Shown here piece after piece: positions 11,093 to 61,016 of a stretch of 64,000 nt of DNA (positions within the stretch are counted from its first letter, which is position 1; every line of letters begins with the position of its first letter). A program made the translations under genes and the position numbers. Source of the stretch: Myxococcota bacterium (GTDB taxonomy: Bacteria > Myxococcota_A > UBA796 > UBA9615 > JAKLKC01); assembly GCA_023150875.1 (NCBI GenBank), contig JAKLKC010000001.1:62001-126000 (forward strand), in the 5' to 3' direction. The notes under the pieces were generated by a model. That model made no database searches. It saw only the letters and a program-made list of their open reading frames with translations, and was not told the DNA's origin.

Positions 11093-11418
11093 GAGGATAG
11101 AACGGACCAGGCCGCGATGTCGAGGTGGGTGTGGGGGATGGGGCGAGGCCCCCTGGGTTCGTTCGGAGCGATCCCCTGCGGAATCCGAGCCCCGTGTGGT
11201 CCTTGTAGCGCATTGTCTGGACACCTGGAGGGGCAGGGAGGGTGCTGCGAGCGCTGGCCGGGGGGGGGCGCCGGGGTAGACCGCGCAAGTCGGGCGACGG
11301 ACGAGGTCCGGGCCTGGGTGTGCCCCACAGAGTGAAGTCCACCTGGGGTGGCCCTGGGCGCTCCGGTCCAGTTGTGCTCGTCGGAGTCGGGGCCCGCGCG
11401 GGGTCTTCACCCCATGGG
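11093..11418. other. Junction region without a recognisable gene
   Basis: Between the truncated copy and the cassette lipoprotein gene. Open frames run through it but none has a start signal or a recognisable domain. Its base composition is more even than that of the flanking genes, like the cassette. It probably holds the left breakpoint of the insertion. Confidence 0.4.
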
Positions 11419-12189: not shown

Positions 12190-13526
12190 CAGTCGGCGAC
12201 TCCGTTGTAGGAAGACCAGACAGCCCACGGAATGGGAAAGCCGAGGGTGGTCGCCGCCGAAGCGAACCGCGACGCGGGATCGTTGACCGCATTGCAGGGA
12301 GCGATCACGCAGTCGACGTCGTTGGCGTTCCAGTCATGGGGATCCGCCTCGTCCCACATGTCGAAGACGTCCCCGACCGAGAGCCCGCCAAACGAGACCA
12401 TGTCCCACCAGAAGCGGAGCCAATCGTACGGCGTGGCGCGATTGCCGACGGCGTTCCCCACGGAATAGTACCCGGAAAAGCACCGGGCATGGAAGTAGTC
12501 CGCGGCTTCGACCGCGGGGCTGACATGGGCACCGTCGGCGCAGTCGACCAGGCCCGTCTGCTCGTCCGCCTGGCGGACCCGGTCCAGGTTCCAGTCGATC
12601 CAGCTCTGCCAGTATCCGAACCAGCAGTCCTGACCCGGCGCGTTCCACGCGGCGGCGGCGAAGAAGTGGGCCAGTCCCTCCACGGCGGCGGCGCTCTGGT
12701 ACTCCCGGGAGTTCATCTCGTGGGAACCCTGGTCGCTCTCGCCGAACCAGGAGTCATGGTCGATGACCGAATCGCCATCCACCTCGTCCACGCGGTCGTT
12801 GAAGCAGTTGATGGGCCGGGAATCGTAGTCCTTGACGTTGCCCCCCTCCGGATTCGCGTAGCGCTGCACCGCGTGACCCATCTCGTGGGTGATGAGGTAC
12901 TTCCTTCCGGTGCTGAACTCCGTCAGGTACACCGCCCCTTCGCAGAAGCAGGTGCCACCGTCCTGGTACGCTTCGTCGAAGAACTTGTATGTCTCCCCCG
13001 CCAACCCCGCATTGCTCCGATACAGCGCCCAGATGGCCGCGCCGAGGATGTTCCAGTGCCTGCGCACGGGCGTCGTCGCGTAGACCGTCGATCCCGCGGC
13101 GTAGTCGTCGGGGTCGAAGTATTGCCACAGGTTCGTGTAGAAGACCTGGTTGTGGTTCGGGTTGTTGTAGACATAGACGTTGTTCAGGTTCACCCATGCG
13201 TAGCTCCAGAAGCTGATCAGGTAGGTCTGGTCGTCGTCGAGGGTGAGTACGGGGGTGCATCCGTGGTAGGGTGGGGTCACGCTGTTCAGCTTGTCGTCGA
13301 ACGGAACGTCTGGCGTCTGGTTCGACTCGACCTTCACATGGACGCCGATGGCCGGATACGTTCCCGGGGCGTTCAAGTAGTCGTCCCCCACCCAGGCATC
13401 GCCATCCTCGAAGTCGAGGTTGAGCTCAAAGCAGAGACGGAGGTCCCGGGTCGCGGCGTGGGACACTCCCGCCGGGAGGCACACGACGGACGTGAGGAAG
13501 AGCAACAGGATCTCGAACCTTCGCAT
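12189..13526 (-). CDS. Secreted gluzincin-like putative metallopeptidase
   Basis: 445 residues with a clear Sec signal peptide (cleavage after VSHA). The zinc motif is His214-Glu215-Met-Gly-His218 in ITHEMGHAVQRY. A later VEGLAHFF block resembles the EGxA motif that supplies the third ligand in gluzincins. The chain is rich in Asn, Trp, Tyr and Asp and has several Cys pairs, fitting a folded extracellular protein. The ATG at 13526 follows a strong GGAGGG site. The gene sits between a secreted hypothetical and a lipoprotein. No family name can be given, and activity is inferred only from the motif. Confidence 0.72.
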   Translation of the reverse strand: MRRFEILLLFLTSVVCLPAGVSHAATRDLRLCFELNLDFEDGDAWVGDDYLNAPGTYPAIGVHVKVESNQTPDVPFDDKLNSVTPPYHGCTPVLTLDDDQTYLISFWSYAWVNLNNVYVYNNPNHNQVFYTNLWQYFDPDDYAAGSTVYATTPVRRHWNILGAAIWALYRSNAGLAGETYKFFDEAYQDGGTCFCEGAVYLTEFSTGRKYLITHEMGHAVQRYANPEGGNVKDYDSRPINCFNDRVDEVDGDSVIDHDSWFGESDQGSHEMNSREYQSAAAVEGLAHFFAAAAWNAPGQDCWFGYWQSWIDWNLDRVRQADEQTGLVDCADGAHVSPAVEAADYFHARCFSGYYSVGNAVGNRATPYDWLRFWWDMVSFGGLSVGDVFDMWDEADPHDWNANDVDCVIAPCNAVNDPASRFASAATTLGFPIPWAVWSSYNGVAD

Positions 13527-28778: not shown

Positions 28779-29033
28779 TCAGCGGCGGCGGGCCCTGCCG
28801 TCGTCCGGCTGGAGCGCGGCGGAGTCCCCCGCGGGGCGCTCGATCTCGTCCGGCGGGGTGACGTCGATGGCGTCCTGCCCGCCCATCGCCTTGCGGAAGT
28901 TGTGGATCGCCTTGCCGAGGGCGGCGGCGGTCTGGGGGAGCTTCGGCGCGCCGAAGACGAACAGGATGATCACCAGGATGATCAGCAGCTCGCCGACGCC
29001 GGGGAAGCTCCACAGCGCGAGGGGGAAGGTCAT
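28779..29033 (-). CDS. tatA: TatA/TatE-family translocase subunit
   Basis: 84 residues: one N-terminal transmembrane helix (GELLIILVIILFVFG), the FGAPKLP hinge, an amphipathic helix (LGKAIHNFRKAMGG) and a polar tail. This is the standard TatA plan, the pore-forming part of twin-arginine export of folded proteins. The ATG at 29033 has GGAG six bases upstream and a good promoter at 29070-29098. tatC is not in the window. Confidence 0.9.
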   Translation of the reverse strand: MTFPLALWSFPGVGELLIILVIILFVFGAPKLPQTAAALGKAIHNFRKAMGGQDAIDVTPPDEIERPAGDSAALQPDDGRARRR

Positions 29034-29098: not shown

Positions 29099-29110
29099 CA
29101 GGGGATCGGG

Positions 29111-29284
29111 CATGCCTATCCGGATGCCACCCAGGGCGGTTCGTGACGACCGCCAGCCGTCGTGAATGGCTCGCCGTCCTTGGCTCGCCCACAGAGGCAC
29201 AGAGCGGCCCGTCCGGGGCCCACAGAGAACACAGAGGGAGGAGCGGGGAGGCCCGGAGCTTTGGGCGGCAAACGGATAGGCAGT
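29111..29284 (+). mobile_element. MITE-like element, copy A (174 bp, non-coding)
   Basis: Ends are inverted repeats: the left end reads CATGCCTATCCG and the reverse complement of the right end reads ACTGCCTATCCG. The pairing extends about 20 bases inward with few mismatches. The element is flanked by an exact 8-bp direct repeat, GGATCGGG (29103-29110 and 29285-29292), as left by transposition. A second copy of identical length lies inverted at 60814-60987. Inside are several CAGAG-containing units. It encodes no transposase and has no convincing coding frame, so it must be moved in trans. Confidence 0.85.
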
Positions 29285-29320
29285 GGATCGGGGACCGCCC
29301 CCCTTCCGAGGGGCCCTCCC

Positions 29321-30595
29321 TCACGACGGCCCGTCGGAGCGGAAGACGATCCGCCCGTCCTTCACCACCGCCGAGGCCGGCCGGTGGCCCAGGGCATAGA
29401 ACAGCTCCCGCCAGTCCGTCACCCGGAAGACCGCGAGGTCCGCCCGGGCGCCGATCCGGACCTGGCCCCGGTCACCCTCGAGGCCGACGGCCCGGGCCGC
29501 GTGGGCGGTGATCCCCGCCAGCGCCTCCTCCAGGGTCAGGCCCATGGCCAGGCAACCCAAGGTCCCCATCAGCAGGAGGTCCGGCGTGGGGGACGTGCCG
29601 GGGTTCCAGTCGGTGGAGACCGCCACCCTCACGCCCGCCCCCCGGAGCGCCCGAGCCGGCGGCGCCGCTGACCGTAGGAAGAGCATCGCCCCGGGCAGCA
29701 GGACGGCGGTGACCCCCGCACCCGCCAGGGCCTCCACGTCCGCCGCCTCCACCCGCTCCAGGTGGTCTGCGGAGGTCGCCCCCAGCTCCGCCGCCAGGGC
29801 CGCGCCGCCGGCGCGGGTGATCTGCTCGGCGTGTACCTTCAGCCCGAGCCCGAGGTCCCGCGCCCGGGTCAGGATCCGCCGGGACTCCGCGGCGCTGAAT
29901 GCCTCCCGCTCGCAGAACACGTCGCAGAACCGTGCCAGCCCCTCCCCCACGACCCGGGGCAGCATCTCCTCCACCACCTCGTCGACGTAGCGCCCGCGGT
30001 CGGAGCGCCTCTCCGCCGGGACGGTGTGGGCTCCGAGGAAGGTGGGTACCAGGTCCCAGGGCCCCTCCCGGTCCAGGTCCCGCACCACCCGCAGGATCCG
30101 GAGCTCCGTCTCGGCGTCCAGGCCGTAGCCCGACTTCACCTCCACGGTGGTGACTCCCCGGGACAGCAGGGACTCCAGCCGGGCCCGGGCCAGCGCCCGC
30201 AGCTCCCCGTCGGACGCCGCCCGGGTGTGCCGTACCGTGCCCAGGATCCCACCCCCCTGGCGCAGGATCTCGGCGTAATCCTCCCCCGCAAGGCGCCGGG
30301 CGAACTCCCCGGCCCTGGAGCCTGCGAAGACGATGTGGGTGTGGCACTCCACGAGGCCGGCGGTGATCACGCCCCCCGCCGCGTCCAGGACTTCGCATCC
30401 CGGCCCCGGGGCGAGGGCCTCGGGCCAGGCACCGTCCGTCCCCACCCAGGCGATCCGGTCCCCCGCGCAGAGCACCGCGCCCCCGGCGACCACCTCGGGG
30501 GGCCCCCCGTCCGGCGAAGAGACCACCTGGGAAGCACCCCGGATGACGAGGGACGTCGCCGCGGCGGGCGGTGTCGGGCTCGGGTTCGGGGTCAC
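29321..30595 (-). CDS. hutI: Imidazolonepropionase
   Basis: Third step of histidine degradation, hydrolysing imidazolonepropionate to N-formimino-glutamate. 424 residues of the amidohydrolase superfamily. The metal-binding HxH is His85/His87 in ECHTHIVFAGSR, followed by RLAGEDYAEILRQGGGI, VEVKSGYGLD, and STDWNPGTSPT, all highly conserved in HutI. The start is GTG at 30595. hutH, hutU and hutG are not in the window. It starts 55 bases after the upstream lipoprotein gene and could be read from that operon. Confidence 0.95.
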   Translation of the reverse strand: MTPNPSPTPPAAATSLVIRGASQVVSSPDGGPPEVVAGGAVLCAGDRIAWVGTDGAWPEALAPGPGCEVLDAAGGVITAGLVECHTHIVFAGSRAGEFARRLAGEDYAEILRQGGGILGTVRHTRAASDGELRALARARLESLLSRGVTTVEVKSGYGLDAETELRILRVVRDLDREGPWDLVPTFLGAHTVPAERRSDRGRYVDEVVEEMLPRVVGEGLARFCDVFCEREAFSAAESRRILTRARDLGLGLKVHAEQITRAGGAALAAELGATSADHLERVEAADVEALAGAGVTAVLLPGAMLFLRSAAPPARALRGAGVRVAVSTDWNPGTSPTPDLLLMGTLGCLAMGLTLEEALAGITAHAARAVGLEGDRGQVRIGARADLAVFRVTDWRELFYALGHRPASAVVKDGRIVFRSDGPS

Positions 30596-60669: not shown

Positions 60670-60813
60670 CGCCAACTCCACAGCTCCCCGCGCCAGGGGA
60701 CCACACCCGCCCCCAGGGAGCAAGGGGCGCGCTGTGCCCCGGGGGACCGAAGGGCCGCGGTCCTTCCCCTGCCGTCCAGCCCTCGACGGGGTCCGCATGC
60801 AGGAAGAACGTAG

Positions 60814-60987
60814 CTTGCCTATCCGTTTGCCGGCCAAAGCCCCGGGCCTCCCCGCTCTTTCCTCTGCGTTCTCTGCGGGCCCTGGACGGGCCACTCTGCG
60901 CCTCTGCGGGCGAGCCAAGGACGGCGAGCCATCTACGACCGCTGGCAGCCATTACGAACCGCCCTGGGCGGCGTCCGGATGGGCATG
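60814..60987 (-). mobile_element. MITE-like element, copy B (174 bp, inverted relative to copy A)
   Basis: Same length as copy A (29111-29284), and its reverse complement aligns along its whole length with scattered substitutions. The left end (TGCCTATCCG at 60816-60825) and right end (CGGATGGGCA at 60976-60985) are inverted repeats with one mismatch. It is flanked by GAACGTAG (60806-60813) and GAATGTAG (60988-60995), an 8-bp target duplication with one change. It sits between the secreted protein gene and the pentapeptide-repeat gene and is non-coding. Confidence 0.85.
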
Positions 60988-61016
60988 GAATGTAGAAGTG
61001 TTGGTACGCGACCCCC

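Follow-up and report, generated by a model that had tools for sequence, protein, structure and literature searches.

What is the short element that lies between a hutI-like amidohydrolase gene and tatA in this Myxococcota bacterium, and how did it come to be there? The window, a stretch of 64,000 nucleotides, contains two copies of the element, A and B (Table 1). A sequence-only reading had described copy A as a 174-bp element with inverted ends and exact 8-bp borders, and this description is confirmed, with GGATCGGG present on both sides. The inverted ends of copy A, at 29113-29133 and 29262-29282, are 86% complementary over 21 nt. That the element sits beside the tatA promoter holds as a statement of position only, in that copy A falls between the stop codon of the hutI-like gene (29321) and the start codon of tatA (29033), 77 bp from the latter and on its upstream side, with 28 bp between the end of the hutI-like gene and the right duplication. 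Copy B was correctly read as being of identical length, but its duplications match at seven of eight positions (GAACGTAG / GAATGTAG) rather than exactly; its orientation is opposite to that of copy A. The element had also been read as lacking a transposase, which is borne out, given that 174 bp is too short for one and that no recognised gene and no RNA family were found inside it.

Table 1. Coordinates in the window of both copies of the element, their repeats and the adjacent genes
Feature	Position	Strand	Remarks
tatA (context)	28782..29033	-	Pfam TatA_B_E, E=1.3e-14
Copy A, left target-site duplication GGATCGGG	29103..29110	.	same letters as 29285-29292
Copy A, 174-bp IS1595-type MITE, family A	29111..29284	+	best of at least 40 substantial genome copies
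Copy A, left terminal inverted repeat CATGCCTATCCGGATGCCACCCA	29111..29133	+	TGCCTATCCGG common to IS1595-family ISs
Copy A, core with four CACAGAG units as two pairs	29190..29236	+	
Copy A, right terminal inverted repeat, reading inward ACTGCCTATCCGTTTGCCGCCCA	29262..29284	-	
Copy A, right target-site duplication GGATCGGG	29285..29292	.	
Amidohydrolase gene, hutI-like (context)	29321..30595	-	Pfam Amidohydro_3, E=1.2e-20; hutI label from sequence reading
Copy B, left target-site duplication GAACGTAG	60806..60813	.	
Copy B, 174-bp IS1595-type MITE, family A, CGCAGAG variant	60814..60987	-	
Copy B, right target-site duplication GAATGTAG	60988..60995	.	one mismatch

A genome-wide search of the 6.9-Mb host genome gave at least 41 matches to the 174-bp element, at least 40 of which are 141 bp or longer; 40 of 103 first-look candidates were scored in the underlying search, and the true number may be higher. 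Identity among the aligned copies ends exactly at an NN-TGCC...GGCA-NN boundary, beyond which the flanks are unrelated. The element is more than a chance resemblance and is not part of a longer repeat. The duplications were scored in 34 complete copies of family A, the family with the CACAGAG core: 11 are perfect, 12 match at seven of eight positions, and 2 match at six of eight. A match of at least 6/8 is therefore found at 25 of the 34 copies, compared with 4.1% of mispaired left and right flanks, and a match of at least 7/8 at 23 of the 34, compared with 0.8%. Across the 35 elements with recognisable duplications, agreement between left and right flanks is 83-100% at exactly eight positions and 20-49% on either side of them. 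In the duplicated sequence, positions 1 and 8 favour G and C, respectively, and positions 2-3 and 6-7 favour A or T. Duplications tend to be poorer in copies that have diverged further (Spearman -0.38, p 0.02; the set includes L036, later assigned to the other core family).

Precise insertion is evidenced by one paralogous empty site. At L015, on contig C114, a MITE is found between GTACGTCG and GTGCGTCG, whereas the paralogous repeat at L029, on contig C103, is free of the MITE, reads GGACTAGTACGTCGTTCCAGAG with a single GTACGTCG, and is identical at 78 of 80 positions across the junction. Exact 8-bp duplications, taken together with this empty site, require insertion. The element is short, has terminal inverted repeats, carries no transposase, and occurs at many unrelated sites with duplications and with an empty site, which are the properties expected of a MITE. 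The sequence-only reading had seen the marks of transposition and proposed a MITE-like element, which is supported by the fixed ends and by 8-bp duplications that are near-perfect in most copies. Variable ends without duplications, or conserved flanks, had been named as signs to the contrary; instead the ends are constant and the flanks differ.

These results also bear on whether the element is a structured RNA or a regulatory intergenic element, such as a terminator, a riboswitch or a REP-like sequence, that spread by recombination rather than by transposition. The + strand of the element does fold better than shuffled sequences (z -2.9), and its core has repeated CACAGAG units, but the advantage in folding disappears when the right-hand end is excluded and only the first 150 bases are considered (z -0.99). 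Rfam has no family in the window, and covariation across 29 copies contributes a term of just -0.14 kcal/mol. Given no covariation across the copies, the RNA-structure reading was rejected. The 8-bp duplications and the empty site refute recombination as the mode of spread, though not a secondary function, and this explanation is very improbable.

The surroundings of some copies merit description. C114:132443 (L015) and C103:146715 (L029) lie in copies of a further dispersed repeat, which is at least 208 bp long and 97% identical, and into which MITEs have inserted at two different points. At C147:122315-122810 (L050), two MITE copies lie 324 bp apart with a shared left flank, and the pair is probably a tandem duplication that took in the MITE. 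A short repeat of the type TTTCGCGTGTTTCGTAGTTTCAAC serves as insertion host in the left flanks of L005, L020, L026, L030 and L042 and in the right flank of L021.

One pair of ends encloses two different cores. In addition to family A, there is a family B of at least seven elements (L031, L034, L036, L041, L043, L044 and L045). These are 162-182 bp long and have good duplications, and their core is a GTGCCCGAGCCCGTG-type sequence unrelated to that of family A. L033, at 153 bp, has only short pieces in common with the family B core, and L146 is a diverged copy of family A. On C152 and C95, elements of both families are found in tandem with a shared duplication. The CACAGAG units change in step within family A copies, such that all four read C-A-C in 21 copies, all four read C-G-C in 8, and the units are mixed in only 3; this concordance across the four units would be explained by a single ancestral replacement or by a coordinated change. 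Environmental viral contigs (L157-L236 and further contigs) also contain CACAGAG arrays (CACAGAGNCACAGAGNNCACAGAG), in 109 stretches altogether, some of them in facing pairs spaced 30-150 bp apart, which is far more than chance would give for 21 fixed bases. No paper that names the CACAGAG repeat was found in the open-access literature.

The parentage of the element can be approached via its ends. The full end pattern of the MITE is NN-TGCCTATCCG[G/T][A/T]TGCC[A/G]CCCA, and ends of the type TGCCTATCCGGTTGCC-CCCA also border autonomous ISs of the IS1595 family, namely ISAcr1 of Acidiphilium, an ISAcr1-like IS carried by a Rhodobacteraceae MAG, and one from another genome within the host's class. 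A DDE_Tnp_IS1595 transposase is encoded by the complete ISs among them, and 8-bp duplications flank those that were checked. Only 4 occurrences of the exact pattern TGCCTATCCGNTTGCCRCCCA were found in a collection of 84,980 genomes, from which the host's own records were possibly left out. Two of these places are contig ends of the Rhodobacteraceae MAG, where the pattern forms the left terminus of a multicopy IS that reads MDVAARSDLPFPQSLPEFQRVFPDD... The N-terminus encoded by this IS matches Zn_ribbon_IS1595 (E=2.2e-13), and the transposases closest to it, at 87% identity, carry the annotation ISAcr1 of the IS1595 family. On plasmids, complete ISAcr1 copies are bounded on both sides by TGCCTATCCGGTTG, encode a DDE_Tnp_IS1595 transposase (PF12762, E=5.3e-40), and are flanked by 8-bp duplications, for instance GAATCAGC, GTTCAACG and ATATATTG. 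An intact IS1595 element from the same class as the host (L117, on contig 1 of G022) carries TGCCTATCCGGTTG at each end, encodes a 339-aa PF12762 transposase, and has the 8-bp duplication TCAGGCAT. Similar ends are found on other IS1595 elements of the phylum (L113, L116, L119 and L127).

Duplications in the IS1595 family are usually 8 bp (PMC8101967). The MITE has both this feature and ends common to autonomous elements of the family, as represented by ISAcr1, the Rhodobacteraceae IS and L117. The sequence-only reading knew of no name for the element and suggested a search for a transposase with matching ends; IS1595-family elements of this description have now been found outside the host, and, by its ends and duplication length, the parent family can be named.

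Descent from the IS4 family, in which the IS231 and ISH8 groups have known mobile cassettes and conserved ends that, like those of the MITE, begin with CAT, is hardly credible. Duplications of 8-10 bp do occur in the IS4Sa subgroup (PMC2266710), but those of IS231 and ISH8 are 10-12 bp (PMC2266710, Table 1), compared with exactly 8 bp for the MITE, and the end sequence of the MITE itself is found on IS1595 elements, such that an IS4 origin is largely refuted. The host has one intact DDE_Tnp_1 element, but its ends (CTCATAGGTAGG...) are unrelated to those of the MITE, and an IS4-family parent (PF01609) was rejected given that this sole intact element has different ends. This DDE_Tnp_1 element, which is IS4-like, is located at C178:10497-11183 (L051), with CTCATAGGTAGG... 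at one end and CACTCATAGGTAGG... at the other.

The ends might instead derive from a TnpB (RNA-guided nuclease) element, as TGGGCGGCAACCGGATAGGCA directly follows tnpB in one environmental viral contig. In this contig (L085, 11278-12398), an exact IS1595-type end at 11278 comes immediately after the stop codon of tnpB, and an imperfect copy with 4 mismatches lies just ahead of the start codon at 12376; close TnpB relatives keep a CGGATAGGC-like sequence at the same place. The downstream motif, however, sits at the expected end of the guide-RNA scaffold, and it is the only one of the two found with the related tnpB genes, which have no left copy. More distant TnpB elements have different ends, no 8-bp duplication is visible at L085, and the TnpB elements L087-L093 have no terminal inverted repeats. 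Elements of the IS200/IS605 type make no target duplications and have no terminal inverted repeats, whereas the MITE has both. A TnpB parent was rejected, given that the host has no match to the TnpB TNB domain and that the relatives lack paired ends, and we regard such an origin as extremely unlikely.

Ends common to IS1595-family ISs, together with 8-bp duplications, argue strongly for a MITE that is mobilised in trans by an IS1595-type DDE transposase, and this is very probably what the element is, with a role for such an enzyme in the host lineage that we infer. The transposase would recognise, in trans, the ends of about 21 bp (NN-TGCCTATCCG-NTTGCC-CCCA) and would insert the element into targets that resemble G(A/T)(A/T)NN(A/T)(A/T)C. 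A staggered cut of 8 bp followed by fill-in would then generate a duplication of the same length. No recognisable coding content is present in the core, which would need only to keep both ends a short distance apart.

The host assembly (97.99% complete, in 180 contigs) has no match to DDE_Tnp_IS1595 (PF12762) at E<=1. Therefore, either the family has been orphaned or its partner is unassembled: the parent may have been lost, or a longer repeat may have failed to assemble. Several host contigs end inside or near MITE elements. Unpaired ends in the host, which might have belonged to a longer autonomous element, proved to be only other MITEs, truncated ends and copies at contig edges. No similarity beyond the ends was found between the MITE and autonomous IS1595 elements, so that descent by internal deletion is unsupported; prokaryotic MITEs in general share only their ends with autonomous elements (Kamoun et al., PMC3852290). 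At the search thresholds used, the whole element was not found outside the host in plasmids, phages and 57 relatives, and the end pattern gave no such MITEs in 70 other genomes of the class. When 71 genomes of the class were searched with the terminal inverted repeat pattern, two weak single matches appeared, L061 and L062, neither of which has a convincing partner. Solitary, unpaired ends are also found at L082, in Thiorhodococcus, and at L083, in Maricaulis, where the end lies inside an open reading frame.

The presence of at least two unrelated cores and no resident transposase raises the idea that IS1595-type ends could serve as a general signal for packaging, through which short dispersed intergenic repeats were captured repeatedly. 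We consider this doubtful; if it were true, the CACAGAG units of environmental contigs would have spread partly as MITE cargo. The common CACAGAG core provides a concrete handle on how a widespread intergenic repeat moves. With a family and a likely mobilising enzyme assigned to the element, its copies become open to annotation in this lineage. The IS1595 family, in which reports of MITEs seem to be few, gains a large group of them that lacks a resident partner.

The comparison with known systems places the element as follows. ISAcr1, found in Acidiphilium and Acidithiobacillus, resembles the MITE in its TGCCTATCCGGTTG..CCCA ends on both sides and in 8-bp duplications that fit the target preference of the MITE, such as GTTCAACG. 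Unlike the MITE, it is about 1.1 kb in length and encodes a 338-aa transposase, the inner part of its ends differs (GACTCCCA / GTTACCCA), and its interior has no similarity to that of the MITE. L117 also has the same ends and an 8-bp duplication, but it is autonomous through its PF12762 transposase, and its genome has one pair of such ends only, with no MITEs seen. The kind of element is ordinary and already known, such that only the specific family is new: the IS1595-family MITE of ISHwa6 in Haloquadratum walsbyi is 165 bp, with 25-bp inverted repeats, 8-bp duplications and 7 copies (Kamoun et al. 2013, PMC3852290, Table 4). That MITE is archaeal and has ISHwa6 as a putative partner, in contrast to the host family, which numbers at least about 40 copies and whose partner is absent from the assembly. 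By description, rather than by end sequence, the two are alike as short IS1595-type elements with 8-bp duplications.
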